A stretch of DNA of 64,000 nucleotides from Kibdelosporangium philippinense (lineage in GTDB: Bacteria; Actinomycetota; Actinomycetes; Mycobacteriales; Pseudonocardiaceae): NCBI RefSeq assembly GCF_021390435.2, contig NZ_JAJVCN010000002.1, positions 310,001 through 374,000 of the forward strand. Direction: 5' to 3'. Shown here in pieces: positions 19,919 through 26,350 of this stretch. The notes beneath the pieces are model-generated. The model saw only the letters and a list, made by a program, of their open reading frames with translations. It was not told the DNA's origin and ran no database searches. Each line of letters opens with the position of its first letter. The stretch's first letter is position 1. The position numbers were made by a program, and so were the translations under genes.

Positions 19919-20578
19919 GTGAAAACAGCTTTGGTGACGGGTGCGTCCGGCGGTATCGGGGCGGCGATTGCGCAGGTCCTGGCGCCGACACACGAGGTGT
20001 GGCTTGGCGGCCGCAAGATCCCGGATGGCCTGCCGGGCCACCCATGGCCGGTGGACCTGCGCGACCTGGACAGCCTCGAAGACAAGACGGCCGAAATCCC
20101 CGACCTGGACGTGCTGGTGCACAGTGCGGGCGTGATCCAGTTGGGCCCGTTGAGCGAGACCTCGGTGCAGACCTGGCGCGACACCCTTGAGCTGAACGTG
20201 ATCGCGGTCGCCGAGCTGACCAGGATCCTGTTGCCCAAGCTCAGGGCCAAAAACGGGCACGTCATCCTGATCAACTCGGGCGCTGGCCTGCGCGTGAACC
20301 CGAACTGGGGTTCCTACGGCGCCAGCAAGTTCGCCCTCAGGGCCTTCGCCGACGCGCTCAGGGCCGAGGAACCGGACATTCGGGTCACCTCGGTCTTCCC
20401 CGGCCGCACGGACACCGAGATGCAGCGTGGGGTGCGAGCCGCCGAGCAAGGTGACTACCAGCCGGAGAAGTACCTCAAACCGGACACGGTCGCCCAGGCT
20501 GTCCTGAACGCCATCACGATGCCCGCCGACGCGCACCCCGCCGAAGTGATCATCCGCCCGAGAGCAACCGCTGGGTGA
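19919..20578 (+). CDS. short-chain dehydrogenase/reductase
   Basis: 219-residue classical SDR. The nucleotide-binding loop is TALVTGASGGIGAAIAQVL, the NAG-equivalent is VLVHSAGVIQLG, and the catalytic set is Asn in LELNVIA, Ser in INSGAG, and Tyr/Lys in GSYGASKFALRAF. The substrate is unknown. The GTG start lies 18 bp after the phosphoribosyltransferase stop, so it may be read from the same transcript, though its function has no clear link to that pair. Its 3' end overlaps the convergent amidohydrolase gene by 29 bp. Confidence 0.88.
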   Translation: MKTALVTGASGGIGAAIAQVLAPTHEVWLGGRKIPDGLPGHPWPVDLRDLDSLEDKTAEIPDLDVLVHSAGVIQLGPLSETSVQTWRDTLELNVIAVAELTRILLPKLRAKNGHVILINSGAGLRVNPNWGSYGASKFALRAFADALRAEEPDIRVTSVFPGRTDTEMQRGVRAAEQGDYQPEKYLKPDTVAQAVLNAITMPADAHPAEVIIRPRATAG

Positions 20579-21860
20579 CAGCGCCTGCCTTGGCCTGAAC
20601 CTCGAAACGGTCAACCCGCGTCGGCTCAAACGACCGCAAAACCTGGTCGCCCGCGACCCAAACATCCTGAACCTGCCGCGAACCGGCTGCCCAGACCACA
20701 TTGGACAGCAGCTGCGCGTCGGGCACGTCGACGCCTGCCGAGAACGCGGGTGCGTCGGTCGAGATGTGCACGATGTCCGCCCAGCGGCCTTCTTCCAGCG
20801 CGCCGATGTCGTCACGGCCGATCGCGGCCGCGCCCATCCGGGTTGCCATCAACAGGACATCCGGCGCGATCAGGGTTGAAGCGTCCATAGTGGACAAACG
20901 GCTGAGCATCGCGGCCAGCCGGACCTCTTCCCACAGGTCCAGGTCGTCGTTGCTGGCCGGTCCGTCCGTGCCGAGGCCGACGGTCACGCCTGCCTCGCGC
21001 AGGTCGCGGATCCGCGCGATGCCGGACGCCAGTTTCGCGTTCGACCCCGGGCAGTGCGCGACCGCGACACCGTGCCGGGCGAAGATCGAAATGTCCTCGT
21101 CGGACAGATGCACGCAGTGCGCCGCGAGCACGCGTCCGCCGTAGAAACCCAACGATTCCAGCAACTTGGGCACCGAACCGTGCGAAGCACGCGCGACGGT
21201 GTCCTCCAAGGACGCTTCGGCCACGTGGATGTGCATGAGCGCGTCACGTTCGTGCGCGGCGGCAGCGACTTCGGTCAGCACCTCCGGCGTCAACGTGTAC
21301 GCCGAGTGCGGGCCGTATCCGATCTCGATCCGGTCGCCCGCGCCGAACCGCAGACCCTCGGTGTCGATCAGCGTGCTGACGTCCTCAAGCAGCGAACGCC
21401 ACGTGAAACCGGGCGCCTCGATGATCCCGCCGGTCAGTACCGCGCGGCCGCCGGTCTGCAGGACCGCGTCGGCGAGCTGATCGAGGTGGAAGTACATCTC
21501 CACACTGGCGGTCACGCCAGCGCGCAGCATCTCGACCGACCCGAGCAGCATCCCGGCGCGCATGTCCGCCGCGCTCAACTGCGCCTCGGCTGGCCAGATG
21601 ACTTCCTGCAGCCAGCGCAGCAACGGCAGGTCGCCGCCCATTCCACGCAGGACCGTCATCGGGGTGTGCGCGTGCGCGTTGATCAGGCCTGGTACCAGGA
21701 TTCCGGACACGTCGGTGATCGGCTCGTCGCCGGGCGCGTCGGCGAGCGGGCCGACGTACCCGATGCGGCCGTTGTCCTCAATGTCCAGCACGGCATCCCG
21801 CAGCACAGAGCAATCCGGGTCGCACGGCAGGATGATCGGAGCACGCAAACGCTGACGCAT
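20550..21860 (-). CDS. amidohydrolase, MTA/SAH-deaminase type (ATZ/TRZ family)
   Basis: 436-residue metal-dependent deaminase or amidohydrolase. Metal and catalytic blocks are NAHAHTPMTVLRGMGGDLPL (HxH), HIHVAEAS, LAAHCVHLSDEDI, HCPGSNAKLA and GLGTDGPASNDDLDLWEE. The pattern around HxH and LPLLRWLQEVIWP matches 5'-methylthioadenosine/S-adenosylhomocysteine deaminases, but related enzymes act on guanine, chlorotriazines and other rings, so the substrate is open. I chose the ATG giving MRQRLRAPIILP; the frame extends 23 codons upstream into the preceding gene. It is the last gene of a run of four on this strand, 10 bp after the NOS-like gene. Confidence 0.83.
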   Translation of the reverse strand: MRQRLRAPIILPCDPDCSVLRDAVLDIEDNGRIGYVGPLADAPGDEPITDVSGILVPGLINAHAHTPMTVLRGMGGDLPLLRWLQEVIWPAEAQLSAADMRAGMLLGSVEMLRAGVTASVEMYFHLDQLADAVLQTGGRAVLTGGIIEAPGFTWRSLLEDVSTLIDTEGLRFGAGDRIEIGYGPHSAYTLTPEVLTEVAAAAHERDALMHIHVAEASLEDTVARASHGSVPKLLESLGFYGGRVLAAHCVHLSDEDISIFARHGVAVAHCPGSNAKLASGIARIRDLREAGVTVGLGTDGPASNDDLDLWEEVRLAAMLSRLSTMDASTLIAPDVLLMATRMGAAAIGRDDIGALEEGRWADIVHISTDAPAFSAGVDVPDAQLLSNVVWAAGSRQVQDVWVAGDQVLRSFEPTRVDRFEVQAKAGAVTQRLLSGG

Positions 21861-21870
21861 GCTGGAAACG

Positions 21871-22818
21871 CTATCCCAGGAAACTAGGGCGATACTTCCC
21901 TGGCTCACGTCGTTGCGGCCGAGCCTCACGCGGCGCGATCGTCACCCCAGCTGCGTGGAATGAGTGCAGGACCGCACGGTCGAGCTCCAGCGCGGCGCGT
22001 TCTCGCCACAGCGATTCGTCGCTTGAGGTAGCCAGCCCCAGGTGTTCGGCAATGACCCGGCCGAATCCGTATGCGCCGTCGGCGCCCAACGCGTCGGCAC
22101 CAATCGCCGAGGACATGTAGATCCCGTTGAACACCACCGGATACTCGATGCCGCCGATCGCCAGCCGCTGCGAGCGCGCGCCCACCGCGTGCCAGCGCAG
22201 CCCAAGATCCACGAACCAGCCCAGCTCCGGGTGCTCCAAAGGCACCTCACGCACGACGTCGCGTGGCAGCCCGAACAACCGAACGCCTTGCTCCTCGTCC
22301 TGCACCACCAACGGCAGTAGGTCGAAGGCGCTGCGCGCGGTCGGCGGCCGCCAGCCCATCTTGCGGACAGTCTCGGTGAACGCGACATGCCGACGGTCGC
22401 CCAGCACCTGGCCGTGCTGCGCGTATCCCGCGTAGCGCACGAGGTGTTCGTTGACCAACCGTGGACTGTCCGGCGCGAAGATCGTCACCGTTGGACGGAC
22501 CCGCCCCTTGCCAGCCGCGAGCCGCAGGTGCTGCACGCACCCGGTCGCGACCTGCGTCGAGGTTCTCGCCGCACGAAGGTCGCGGACCAGCAGTTCGCGC
22601 CATGGAACTCCGTCGGTGTACACACCGCTGTCGCGCAACGCTATCCGCGCGCCGTATGCCAGTTCCGCACGAGTGTGTTCGTACGTCCCGGTTTCCGCGA
22701 TCTGCGCGCGGACCTTGCCGAGGCGGGCCTGCACATGCCCGGCACGCGGGCGGGCACCGTGGTACCGGTGCAGGAACTCCTCGGCGGCGACAAGCTCAGT
22801 CGATAACAGGGCAGTCAC
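21871..22818 (-). CDS. nitric-oxide-synthase-fold protein lacking the haem cysteine
   Basis: 315-residue protein that aligns with bacterial NOS oxygenases over most of its length: TGTYEHTRAELAYGARIAL, RPTVTIFAP, LVRYAGYAQHGQVLGDRR, FDLLPLVVQ, REVPLEHPELGWF, LGLRWHAV, FNGIYM, and SLWRERAALELDRAVLHSF. Two hallmark residues are changed. The RNxxRCIGR haem-thiolate motif reads RDSGVYTDG, placing Tyr67 at the cysteine. The arginine-binding Glu of WYMxxE reads IYMSSA (Ala238). The C-terminal DHHTA region and the roughly 50 residues after it are absent. So ordinary NO synthesis is unlikely; another activity or a pseudoenzyme is possible. GTG start chosen; a TTG 12 codons upstream is an alternative. 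Confidence 0.82.
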   Translation of the reverse strand: MTALLSTELVAAEEFLHRYHGARPRAGHVQARLGKVRAQIAETGTYEHTRAELAYGARIALRDSGVYTDGVPWRELLVRDLRAARTSTQVATGCVQHLRLAAGKGRVRPTVTIFAPDSPRLVNEHLVRYAGYAQHGQVLGDRRHVAFTETVRKMGWRPPTARSAFDLLPLVVQDEEQGVRLFGLPRDVVREVPLEHPELGWFVDLGLRWHAVGARSQRLAIGGIEYPVVFNGIYMSSAIGADALGADGAYGFGRVIAEHLGLATSSDESLWRERAALELDRAVLHSFHAAGVTIAPREARPQRREPGKYRPSFLG

Positions 22819-22877: not shown

Positions 22878-23576
22878 CTACCCTGCGTGGGCCTTTTCGA
22901 AGATCAGGTCGCGGATTTCCCGTCCTTCGGTATGCGCCCGCGACTCGAACTTGGTCACCGGACGCCATTCCGGCCGTGGCGCCCACCCGTCGTACACGTT
23001 GCGCAACGCGGGTTCCGCGGAGCACACCTCCATCATGTGCTCGGCGTAGTGCTCCCAGTCGGTCGCCATGTGGAACCGCCCGCCAGGCGCCAGTCGTGAA
23101 GCGACCAGTGCAGCGAAATCCGGCTGGACGATCCGTCGCTTGTGGTGCCGCTTCTTGGGCCAAGGGTCCGGGAAGTACAGCCGAACCTCGGACAACGAGT
23201 CCGGCGCGATGTGTTCAGTGAGCAGGATGACCGCGTCGCCACGCAGCAGCCGGAGGTTGGTCAGCTCAAGCTCGGCGGCGCGCATCATCAGCTGCGCCAA
23301 GCCTGCTTGGTATACCTCGACGGCCAGATAGTTCACGTCCGGTGCGGCGGCGGCCAGCTTCGCCGTGGTCTCGCCCATCCCCGAACCGATCTCCAGCACG
23401 ACCGGCGCCGACCGTCCAAACCATGCCCCAGCGTCCAACGGACCAGAAGGCAGGTCAGAAATCTCCTGGCCGAGCTGCGGCCAATAGCGCTCCCATGCCC
23501 GTTCCTGGCCTACCGTCATCCGCCCGCCACGCTGGACGTAGCTGACGATCGTGCGCCTGTGTAGCTGTTGTTCCAC
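22878..23576 (-). CDS. trmB: tRNA (guanine-N7-)-methyltransferase
   Basis: SAM-dependent enzyme forming m7G46 in tRNA variable loops. The 232 residues hold the SAM loop LEIGSGMGETTAKLA, the acidic YLAVEVYQAGL, and the TrmB signature VRLYFPDPWPKKRHHKRR followed by GGRFHMATDWEHYAEHM. The start is GTG, 10 bp after the stop of the unknown upstream gene. It lies 59 bp before the NOS-like gene on the same strand, so the four genes probably form an operon. Identity is secure. Confidence 0.95.
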   Translation of the reverse strand: MEQQLHRRTIVSYVQRGGRMTVGQERAWERYWPQLGQEISDLPSGPLDAGAWFGRSAPVVLEIGSGMGETTAKLAAAAPDVNYLAVEVYQAGLAQLMMRAAELELTNLRLLRGDAVILLTEHIAPDSLSEVRLYFPDPWPKKRHHKRRIVQPDFAALVASRLAPGGRFHMATDWEHYAEHMMEVCSAEPALRNVYDGWAPRPEWRPVTKFESRAHTEGREIRDLIFEKAHAG

Positions 23577-23586
23577 GTCGGAAAAG

Positions 23587-24189
23587 CTAGAACACGCTCT
23601 CCCAGCGGGCGAGGTTGGACCGCAGGTCGCCCATCCCCTTCACCGCGAGTGGGGTCGGTTTGCCGGTCGTGAGATGCACGGGATAGATGTCGAGCCAGCC
23701 GGTGTGCCGGTCGGTGAGCACGAGCGTGGTCGGCACGGCAGGCCCGGATACTCGACGTTCGGACGGCATGTATTCCCAGTAGCCGCAGTCACCATCGCTG
23801 CTCCACGGCACGAAAACCCAGCCAGGACGGGCATCCAGCAACTTGCCGACCCGGTCCTCCAGTAGGAAACCTTCCGCCCGTGAGGTCAATTCGCCTGCTG
23901 CCAACGCCTTCAGCCACCACGGGGCGGCCAGCTCTGGGTCGACTTCGGACGCTGAGCGGTACAGGGTCAGTACTTGGTCCTCTGGTGCACGATGGACCCA
24001 CGCACGCCGGGCTTCAGCTGGTTTCGTCGCGGCCGCGATGGATGCCAACGCGGTATGGGGCTCGATGGCCTGTGACCATTCGAGCTCGATCATCGGTTCG
24101 ACTCGTAGTGCCCGTCGGGGCCCCATGCCGTTGTTCGGCATGACCGGCTCCGGCGGTTCCGTAGGTGCGCTTACATCGGCGACCGTCAA
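23587..24189 (-). CDS. unknown 200-residue protein upstream of trmB
   Basis: I do not recognise this protein. It is soluble-looking, with no signal peptide or membrane helix. It is rich in Trp and acidic residues, with a central helical part (TALASIAAATKPAEARRAW) and a C-terminal part with GWVFVPWSSDGDCGYWEYMP, LVLTDRHTGWLDIYPVHL and LAVKGMGDLRSNLARW. The start is probably TTG, because GGAGGT sits five bases ahead of it and no ATG or GTG nearby has one. It is tightly linked to trmB (10-bp gap) and likely heads that operon. The upstream 285 bp hold only the terminator of the ABC genes. Confidence 0.65.
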   Translation of the reverse strand: MTVADVSAPTEPPEPVMPNNGMGPRRALRVEPMIELEWSQAIEPHTALASIAAATKPAEARRAWVHRAPEDQVLTLYRSASEVDPELAAPWWLKALAAGELTSRAEGFLLEDRVGKLLDARPGWVFVPWSSDGDCGYWEYMPSERRVSGPAVPTTLVLTDRHTGWLDIYPVHLTTGKPTPLAVKGMGDLRSNLARWESVF

Positions 24190-24384
24190 CGTCCACCTCC
24201 GATGGTTCGTGACGGAGTCAACATCGATCTGAGCGCTAGTCGAACATCGTTGTCCGCGATAAGTGCGGCACCTCACAGCCTCTTAACGTGGTCTTAACCG
24301 GGCCGCATGCGCTAGATCGCTTCGTTACATCCTTGCAAGCTCGACCGGTGATCGCAACCGTGGGTGACCAGACCAACAAAGAAA

Positions 24385-24475: not shown

Positions 24476-25234
24476 TCAGGCGTCCCGCTTCTTTGCCGTG
24501 ACGATGGCGATCACCAGCATGACGATGGCGAAGCCGGCGAAGTACGCCAGCGCTGCCCATGGGGCGAGCGTGCTCGTGGAACTGCCTGGCCCGTCGACGA
24601 CCTGTGCGAGATCCGGGTTGCCGGTGAGGAACCGGTTGGCGACGTTGAACGGCAGCCACTGGTGGATGTCCCTGCCGATGCTCGGAATCAGCTGGACGAG
24701 GTTCTCGGCCACGAGCGAGTAGGCAAGCAGCAGCGACACGGCGCCTGCTGTGTGCCGGATCAGGATGCCGGCCGAGATCGCCACGACAGCGGCGAAGAAC
24801 GTGATCAGACCTGTACCGGCGACCTGCCGCCAGTCGGCCTCGCTGTTGAGCGCGAGGTTGGCGTCCGGCTGGATCAGCATGGCGATGCCGACCGAACCGA
24901 ACGCGGCGATCAGGCCGAGGACGCCGGAGACGAACGCGACGACAGTGGTCTTGGCCAACAAGGCGGACGTGCGGCTCGGCACCGCCTGGAACGTCGTCCT
25001 GATGGTGTTGAAGCGGTATTCGGTGGTCACCGACAGCGTGGCGAGCACGAGGATGACCGCCAAGGCGAAGGTGAACCCGAACTGGCTCATCGGCACGGAG
25101 AGCTCGCCCGCGTTGGAGGCCGACGCGCTGACCAGTGCGGCGAACCCGACCATCAGGCCAAGTGCCAGCGCCATGCACCACCACGGTGACCGGGTGGAGA
25201 AGAGCTTGATTCGTTCGACAGCGAGCAGGGTCAT
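24476..25234 (-). CDS. ABC-2 type transporter permease
   Basis: 252-residue membrane subunit of an ABC exporter with six predicted helices, beginning near residues 20-35 and ending with FAGFAIVMLVIAIVTA before a KKRDA tail. The cytoplasmic loop TLSVTTEYRFNTIRTTFQ is typical of ABC-2 permeases in two-gene actinobacterial exporters. The ATG overlaps the stop of the ATPase gene (ATGA), so they are translated as a pair. The exported substrate is unknown; drugs, lipids and peptides are all possible. Confidence 0.88.
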   Translation of the reverse strand: MTLLAVERIKLFSTRSPWWCMALALGLMVGFAALVSASASNAGELSVPMSQFGFTFALAVILVLATLSVTTEYRFNTIRTTFQAVPSRTSALLAKTTVVAFVSGVLGLIAAFGSVGIAMLIQPDANLALNSEADWRQVAGTGLITFFAAVVAISAGILIRHTAGAVSLLLAYSLVAENLVQLIPSIGRDIHQWLPFNVANRFLTGNPDLAQVVDGPGSSTSTLAPWAALAYFAGFAIVMLVIAIVTAKKRDA

Positions 25235-26172
25235 CGGTTCACATCCACCAGTTGGTCAACGGCCTGGGCAAGTTCGGTGTGGTATTCGACGGAGTCGCCG
25301 GTCAGCTGCATGAACGCCTCTTCGAGCGAACCGCGCTGCGGGCTGAGCTCGTGCAGCACGACCTGGTTGGCCGCGGCGATCTCACCGATCTGCGCAGCGT
25401 CCAAACCAGACACGACCAGGGCGTCGGCGTCGTCGCGCAGCGTGGCATTGGTGGTCCGCATGAGTGCGTCACGCAGCTTGCTCGCCTGCGGGCTGCGCAC
25501 CTTGACGGTGTTCTCCGTCGCGGCGTGGATGAAGTCCTCAGTGGAGCTCTGGGCGATCAGCTTGCCGCGCCCGATCACGACGAGTTCCTGCGCGGTCAGC
25601 GACATCTCCGACAGCAGGTGGCTGGACACCAGCACGGTCCGGCCCTCGTCGGCCAGCCGGTGCATGAACTTGCGGATCCAGAGGATGCCCTCAGGGTCGA
25701 GGCCGTTCACCGGCTCGTCGAACAGCAGGATCTCCGGGTCGCCGAGCAGTGCGCCCGCGATCCCCAACCGCTGCGACATACCGAGGGAGAACCCACCCGC
25801 GCGCTTCTTGGCGACCGCGGTCAGACCGACGAGCTCAAGCACCTCGTCCACCCGGCGAACCGGAATCTTGTTGGACACGGCCATCCACTGCAGGTGCGCG
25901 TACGCCGAACGGTTGGGGTGCACCCACTTGGCGTCCAGCAGCGCGCCGATCTTGCGCAGCGGGTTGTGCAGCTCGCGGTAGTTCTTGCCGTCGATGAGGG
26001 CGACACCTGAGGTCGGGTTGTCCAAACCGAGCATCATCCGCATGGTGGTGGACTTGCCAGCGCCGTTCGGGCCGAGAAAGCCGGTGACCCGGCCGGGCTG
26101 AACGGTGAACGACAGATCGTTGACCGCGAGGGTCTTCCCATATCGCTTGGTGAGGCCCCGTGCCTCGATCAT
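25231..26172 (-). CDS. ABC transporter ATP-binding protein
   Basis: 313-residue ATPase of the DrrA/BcrA-like exporter group. Walker A is GFLGPNGAGKSTTMRMM, the signature is FSLGMSQRLGIAGALLG, Walker B is ILLFDEPVNGLDPEG, and the H-loop is VLVSSHLLSEM. The C-terminal 100 residues form the usual regulatory extension. AAGGAG lies five bases before the ATG chosen (MIEARGLTKRYG); a longer frame has no support. It is the first gene of the exporter pair. Confidence 0.92.
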   Translation of the reverse strand: MIEARGLTKRYGKTLAVNDLSFTVQPGRVTGFLGPNGAGKSTTMRMMLGLDNPTSGVALIDGKNYRELHNPLRKIGALLDAKWVHPNRSAYAHLQWMAVSNKIPVRRVDEVLELVGLTAVAKKRAGGFSLGMSQRLGIAGALLGDPEILLFDEPVNGLDPEGILWIRKFMHRLADEGRTVLVSSHLLSEMSLTAQELVVIGRGKLIAQSSTEDFIHAATENTVKVRSPQASKLRDALMRTTNATLRDDADALVVSGLDAAQIGEIAAANQVVLHELSPQRGSLEEAFMQLTGDSVEYHTELAQAVDQLVDVNR

Positions 26173-26350
26173 GATCGCTCCTTGGAAGTCTGAGTCCCGC
26201 CTCGATGTGACCATCCTGTTCGCCCCACCTGTCCGACCGCGTCGTCCCGTGGTGCCAACTCGGGGTCAACTCGCAGTCGTAGCCTGGCGGACATCCAGCC
26301 AACCTGCGATCCGTGAAAACCCCGATCTGTCCCTGAGTTGCCACCCCCTA

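Follow-up and report, generated by a model that had tools for sequence, protein, structure and literature searches.

A trmB-linked relative of nitric oxide synthase in Kibdelosporangium carrying tyrosine in place of the haem cysteine

Nitric oxide synthases (NOS) are among the best studied haem-thiolate enzymes. The roles of their key residues are taken here to be those known from mouse iNOS, namely the proximal Trp188, the haem ligand Cys194, the arginine-binding Glu371 and the tryptophan of the pterin site. The closest described systems are the bacterial NOS oxygenases (PF02898; e.g., PDB ID: 2flq and the B. subtilis NOS, PDB ID: 2amo). The protein described here is homologous to them over most of its length, with a gapless block around the haem cysteine, but lacks the haem Cys, the arginine Glu, the proximal Trp, the pterin-site motif and the DHH motif. 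In actinobacteria, the NOS of natural-product clusters (TxtD, RufN/IlaM, PtnF, and FlsN1) provide NO as a precursor, and in the passages of PMC10831120 concerned with them they belong to biosynthetic clusters, whereas the present gene lies between trmB and an amidohydrolase gene. Loss of haem binding by a haem fold is exemplified by the pseudoglobin module of Synechococcus NOS (PMC12922734), which also occurs in an NO-related protein but is a globin and not a NOS oxygenase fold. No description of a NOS relative that lacks the cysteine or is linked to trmB was found in the open-licence PMC literature.

The window, i.e., the whole analysed stretch of 64,000 nucleotides from Kibdelosporangium philippinense, contains the following features around this gene:

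19919..20578, plus strand: short-chain dehydrogenase (SDR; PF00106), convergent, at the end of the conserved block
20550..21860, minus strand: amidohydrolase-family, deaminase-like gene (PF01979; all NCBIfam matches below cut-off; reading frame open to 21929)
21871..22818, minus strand: gene derived from NOS oxygenase, 315 codons from GTG (reading frame, profile, and structure-sequence matches)
22105..22107, minus strand: codon 238, GCG = Ala, where NOS has the Glu that binds arginine (position counted from 22818)
22618..22620, minus strand: codon 67, TAC = Tyr, where NOS has the Cys that ligates haem (position counted from 22818)
22854, minus strand: possible alternative TTG start of the NOS-like gene (a TTG is similarly placed in K. 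banguiense)
22878..23576, minus strand: trmB, tRNA m7G46 methyltransferase, upstream (TIGR00091, E 4.4e-47, above cut-off; PF02390)
23587..24276, minus strand: conserved 229-aa protein upstream of trmB, without a Pfam or NCBIfam match
24476..25234, minus strand: ABC permease-like gene, part of the conserved block, named by reading the sequence
25231..26214, minus strand: ABC ATPase of the conserved block, named by reading the sequence

Plus-strand frame 1 is interrupted by stops across 21871-22818, and the coding strand of the gene is the minus one. The protein matches the Pfam profile NO_synthase (PF02898) with E 3.1e-82 and 276.8 bits against a cut-off of 22.7, its residues 11-295 corresponding to positions 8-299 of the 362 in the profile; no NCBIfam model matches it. 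The best solved relative is 2flq (E 3.1e-60), to which the alignment is gapless across the haem-cysteine block. These matches place the protein, by sequence, in the NOS oxygenase family. The gene is present in all eight genomes of the genus examined, intact in seven and broken across two frames in one (L037), with Tyr at the Cys column in 8/8 and Ala238 in the seven intact copies as well as in the corresponding piece of the split one. Frame errors are likely in the L037 assembly, as its canonical NOS is split too (L051/L053). The initial annotation had proposed the same gene boundaries, membership of the NOS family, replacement of the haem Cys by Tyr67 and of the arginine Glu by Ala238, loss of the C-terminal DHH segment and absence of a frameshift; each of these statements withstood the comparison, the last for the window copy, and both the DHH and the pterin-Trp motifs are missing from the 7/7 intact copies.

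The sole cysteine of the window protein, Cys94, lies 27 residues from Tyr67 in sequence. A different Cys at the haem site, which the initial annotation had named as evidence that would speak against its reading, was rejected, since Cys94 alone is invariant in the genus and is shared by the canonical sequence L038. The idea that Arg215 has newly come to lie above the haem was also rejected. In the alignment with L038, gaps of one residue fall directly before Phe230 and near residue 216; such a gap leaves the column of Arg215 uncertain, and in one species the position is occupied by Cys. Gly213 is found in all seven intact Tyr-bearing sequences (TYR) at a column that is Pro in 113 of the 114 others.

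Removal of duplicates left 130 sequences, 121 of which were complete enough for counts: 52 canonical NOS, 26 with Leu or Met for the proximal Trp and with both Cys and Glu, 23 with Leu or Val for this Trp and no Glu, two from the genus coded g52 in which Glu was, as it seems independently, replaced by Thr, seven of a second paralog of the window's genus, seven TYR, and four with Gly for Cys. The 58 "canonical-like" sequences of one residue comparison include the Gly sequences and partial pieces; feature counts use the 52. The pterin-site motif (W-x-W) occurs in 46/52 canonical sequences and in none of the 26 trmB-linked sequences with Cys and Glu, the 25 without Glu (g52 included) or the seven TYR. 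Cys occupies the haem column in 52/52, 26/26, and 25/25 of these groups, respectively, and in 0/7 TYR. Glu is found at the arginine column in 52/52 canonical and 26/26 trmB-linked Cys/Glu sequences, whereas all seven TYR have Ala. The DHH-type motif is present in 49/52 canonical sequences against 0/7 TYR. As this motif and the pterin-Trp motif are also absent from 25/25 trmB-linked relatives that lack Glu and retain Cys, the C-terminal loss is older than Tyr67. The varied residues at the Glu column of the 23 Glu-less sequences (Ala in 19, Thr in two, Ser and Gly in one each) show that the residue itself is free and that the loss is that of the Glu.

The nearest relatives of the window protein (L054-L069, L010, and others; 57-67% identity) thus share with it the locus, the C-terminal motif loss and the Glu loss, and differ in having kept Cys (23/23). 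The trmB-linked relatives with Glu, mostly of the GWC type at the haem block, share the locus, a replaced proximal Trp (theirs by Leu or Met) and the loss of the pterin motif (26/26), and differ in retaining Cys and Glu (26/26). The initial annotation had held that homologues with RCIGR at this position would count against it: same-locus relatives of other genera do have the cysteine there, as GWC rather than RCIGR. Tyr is therefore no artefact but a change that is derived and confined to one genus.

Two further NOS-type genes are encoded in the window genome: L003, which is canonical (RCIGR and WYMGTE), and L002, which is of the GWC type, has Asp for Glu, and is 54% identical to the window protein. 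L002 (1432-2481, minus strand), which adjoins a DUF427 gene, and its six kin form the second paralog; it is found in the same genomes as the Tyr gene (7/8 of the genus) and differs in keeping Cys, in having Asp for the arginine Glu (7/7) and in having no trmB on the fetched stretch (0/7).

In a tree of 65 sequences, from which a duplicate of the query and four split pieces were left out, TYR forms a clade with support of 100/100; the initial annotation had asked whether Tyr67/Ala238 proteins do so. TYR and the Glu-less sequences form a clade of 26 (100/100), and addition of the GWC sequences gives a clade of 43 (100/96), which falls within canonical NOS. The Glu-less sequences alone form one clade at only 93/73; in a tree of 121 sequences, computed with two trait blocks omitted and nine split or partial pieces of the 130 left out, the Glu-less L010 groups with TYR (SH-aLRT 84). 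TYR may consequently have arisen from within the Glu-less sequences. In the larger tree, TYR and the Gly sequences are each one group (SH-aLRT 100 for both) and stand apart, the latter on a long branch; on this tree, the haem Cys was lost twice. The losses are nested, first of the proximal Trp and the pterin motif, then of the Glu, and then the change of Cys to Tyr in one genus. The window gene is the most derived member of a trmB-linked, NOS-derived lineage in Pseudonocardiaceae.

Each of the 58 sequences that lack the proximal Trp is accompanied by trmB on its fetched stretch (26/26 with Cys and Glu, 23/23 Glu-less, 2/2 from g52, and 7/7 TYR), 53 of them on standard stretches and five on longer ones, with trmB at most about 2.8 kb away. 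The corresponding counts are 0/7 for the second paralog and 0/52 for canonical loci, most of which were fetched with 1.5 kb flanks only. In other Pseudonocardiaceae the order at this address is, with some insertions, ABC genes, 229-aa protein, trmB, NOS-type gene, deaminase and SDR, and in the other genera the NOS-type gene keeps its Cys. The 229-aa protein (23587..24276, minus strand) is kept upstream of trmB in many Pseudonocardiaceae loci. Of the neighbours named by the initial annotation, trmB and a deaminase-like enzyme are borne out by the profiles; the specification "MTA/SAH" was a guess. Its view that the setting is odd for NOS does not hold for this lineage, for which the trmB side is a fixed address (58/58).

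The setting was rejected as a pointer to function. Fourteen Pseudonocardiaceae genomes from 13 genera, picked because they have no trmB-type NOS match, showed no NOS-like match at their trmB loci (about 1.5 kb flanks), and in three of them (L168, L173, and L175) trmB is followed directly by the deaminase with no NOS-type gene between. Since the junction of trmB and deaminase occurs without a NOS-type gene, the address is no evidence of a common function. In the window, the ATG of the deaminase-like gene at 21860 lies 10 bases past the stop of the NOS-like gene.

In the closest species trio, dN/dS (Nei-Gojobori, same species pairs across three genes) is 0.046-0.050 in TYR, as compared with 0.074-0.088 in the second paralog and 0.087-0.107 in canonical NOS; in wider pairs the values reach 0.27, 0.30, and 0.18, respectively. 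The TYR gene is under purifying selection and, given these low values, is not decaying. Outside the pocket, the positions invariant among six matched species number 181/253 in TYR, 182/253 in canonical NOS, and 199/249 in the second paralog. In the pocket shell, a list drawn up after mouse iNOS, the figures are 21/32, 30/32, and 29/32, and for blocks 61-73 and 229-243 only, they are 18/28, 28/28, and 26/28. With positions taken as independent, Fisher tests on shell counts (sets of 7, 7, and 6 rows) separate TYR from the second paralog (p 0.016) and from canonical NOS (p 0.005). Shell and rest do not differ within TYR (p 0.5-0.8), and the shell excess in the second paralog is not significant (p 0.11-0.23). 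In seven-row sets, the body of TYR is less conserved than that of the second paralog (165 vs 197 of 253, p 0.002). The pocket has lost the extra conservation seen in canonical NOS. Tyr67, Phe230, Asn231, and Gly232 do not vary within the genus, which a haem site would require; with 185 of 285 positions invariant there, this weighs little for or against such a site.

Structure models predicted from six and seven sequences had a mean pLDDT of 46.3 and 54.3, respectively; in each of them, the pocket stretches (residues 66-71 and 231-245) scored less than 50. NOS chains were among the 50 Foldseek matches listed for the second, low-pLDDT model, but with TM of 0.38-0.41 and rmsd above 14 Å, so that they do not count as structural evidence.

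The reading preferred here, with a probability of roughly 55%, is a functional protein other than NOS, most likely free of haem, in which constraint acts on the body of the fold and not on the haem pocket. In the trmB-linked lineage, loss of the proximal Trp and of the pterin-site motif was followed by that of the Glu that holds arginine and then, in the genus of the window only, by replacement of the haem Cys with Tyr, for which a single base change (TGC to TAC) could suffice. NO would no longer be made from arginine, and constraint would have shifted from the haem pocket to the fold body, leaving a potential role in binding, as a scaffold or in regulation, with Tyr67 filling the space of the former ligand and haem. 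Loss of NO synthesis is presumed from the missing residues, and the combination of lost catalytic residues with retained purifying selection is that of a putative pseudoenzyme. Among the options left by the initial annotation (tyrosinate-ligated haem, haem-free fold, or pseudoenzyme), the data lean towards the latter two, since special conservation has gone from the pocket while the body is still conserved. Related living species show, at a single locus, the loss of the pterin site, then of the substrate anchor and then of the haem ligand, with selection acting to the last; the series is well suited to exploring which tasks the NOS fold can perform when it does not make NO. A match to PF02898 need not imply NO production.

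It is possible, though distinctly less probable, that Tyr67 is the proximal ligand of a haem moved towards the emptied distal pocket, in a protein that senses, stores or turns over a compound other than arginine. As the nearest relatives have Cys in 23/23, haem was probably bound until recently, and Tyr67 is kept in 8/8 copies, whereas the nearby residues 63, 64, 65, 68, and 69 differ among the seven intact proteins. The bulk lost from the distal block (Trp to Ile, Glu to Ala) could make room for the haem. The side chain of Tyr, however, reaches about 3 Å beyond that of Cys and requires a shift of the backbone or of the haem; the C-terminal part that carries the pterin motif, also situated at the haem edge in NOS, is gone; and the pocket shell of TYR is no more conserved than the rest (21/32 vs 181/253). 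Tyr is a known haem ligand (PMC11101860). Yeast Sfh5 is reported to be a paralog of a transfer-protein family turned haem protein. If the tyrosinate reading were true, the locus would present a haem-thiolate family that has naturally exchanged its ligand on the NOS fold. That its living members are intermediates between a Cys-ligated NOS-type haem protein and a Tyr-ligated one with a new, non-arginine function is a doubtful proposition.

An improbable alternative is a regulatory role, in which the protein would pair as a heterodimer with an active NOS-type paralog of the cell and modulate that paralog. NOS proteins are homodimers, and the Cys-bearing genes L002 and L003 of the window genome, together with the wide occurrence of the Cys/Asp paralog in the genus, would offer such partners. 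The pterin segment, which forms part of the NOS dimer interface, is nevertheless missing; in G001 the Tyr gene is kept and the search shows neither a Cys/Asp paralog nor a canonical RCIGR NOS, the only other NOS-type gene being divergent (L043); and 11 of the 23 Glu-less relatives are the single NOS-type match in their genome, with at most five candidates scored per genome.

A repurposed enzyme, which would use its emptied cavity for a new substrate and operate either haem-free or with a different metal, is very unlikely. The strong constraint among close species and the fixation of the distal block (SSAIG) in the genus would suit it, but inspection showed no newly conserved cluster of the kind that binds metal, the one invariant cysteine is not peculiar to TYR, and the neighbours suggest no substrate, since trmB and the deaminase exist without a NOS-type gene. 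Decay into a pseudogene, to which the split copies L037 and L131 (from another genus) could point, is scarcely credible in view of the low dN/dS in the closest trio, the 7/8 intact copies and the frame errors likely in the L037 assembly. The haem-free, non-NOS protein remains the preferred reading.

Several observations concern other members of the family. The NOS-type relative at the trmB locus of another genus that is split between two frames (L131) belongs to G030. The two g52 sequences (L138 and L139) are trmB-linked, have Thr for Glu (WFIGGTVG) and fall outside the main Glu-less clade, which suggests a second loss of the arginine anchor. Close copies of the Tyr gene occur in five public records (84-97% identity); the one titled Rhodococcus rhodnii NRRL B-16535 (L033) has a 97% copy at the same contig place as the genus genome G004 and is probably mislabelled. 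A second, separate NOS-type group without the haem Cys has Gly at that column; it comprises the four genomes with a match from the genus coded g41 (L029, 1360-2340, minus strand; L126; L127; L128, 4173-5147, minus strand), which keep the Glu and the proximal Trp and have no pterin motif. The NOS-type gene directly follows a gene of the Orn/Lys/Arg decarboxylase type in L029, where the decarboxylase matches PF01276, and in L128, where it was named by reading the sequence. A 134 kb IMG/VR sequence (L095, 2962-4152) was the one contig that came up in both of two scans for further NOS relatives among viral contigs; it encodes a canonical NOS with RCIGR and WYMGTE and may be host DNA.
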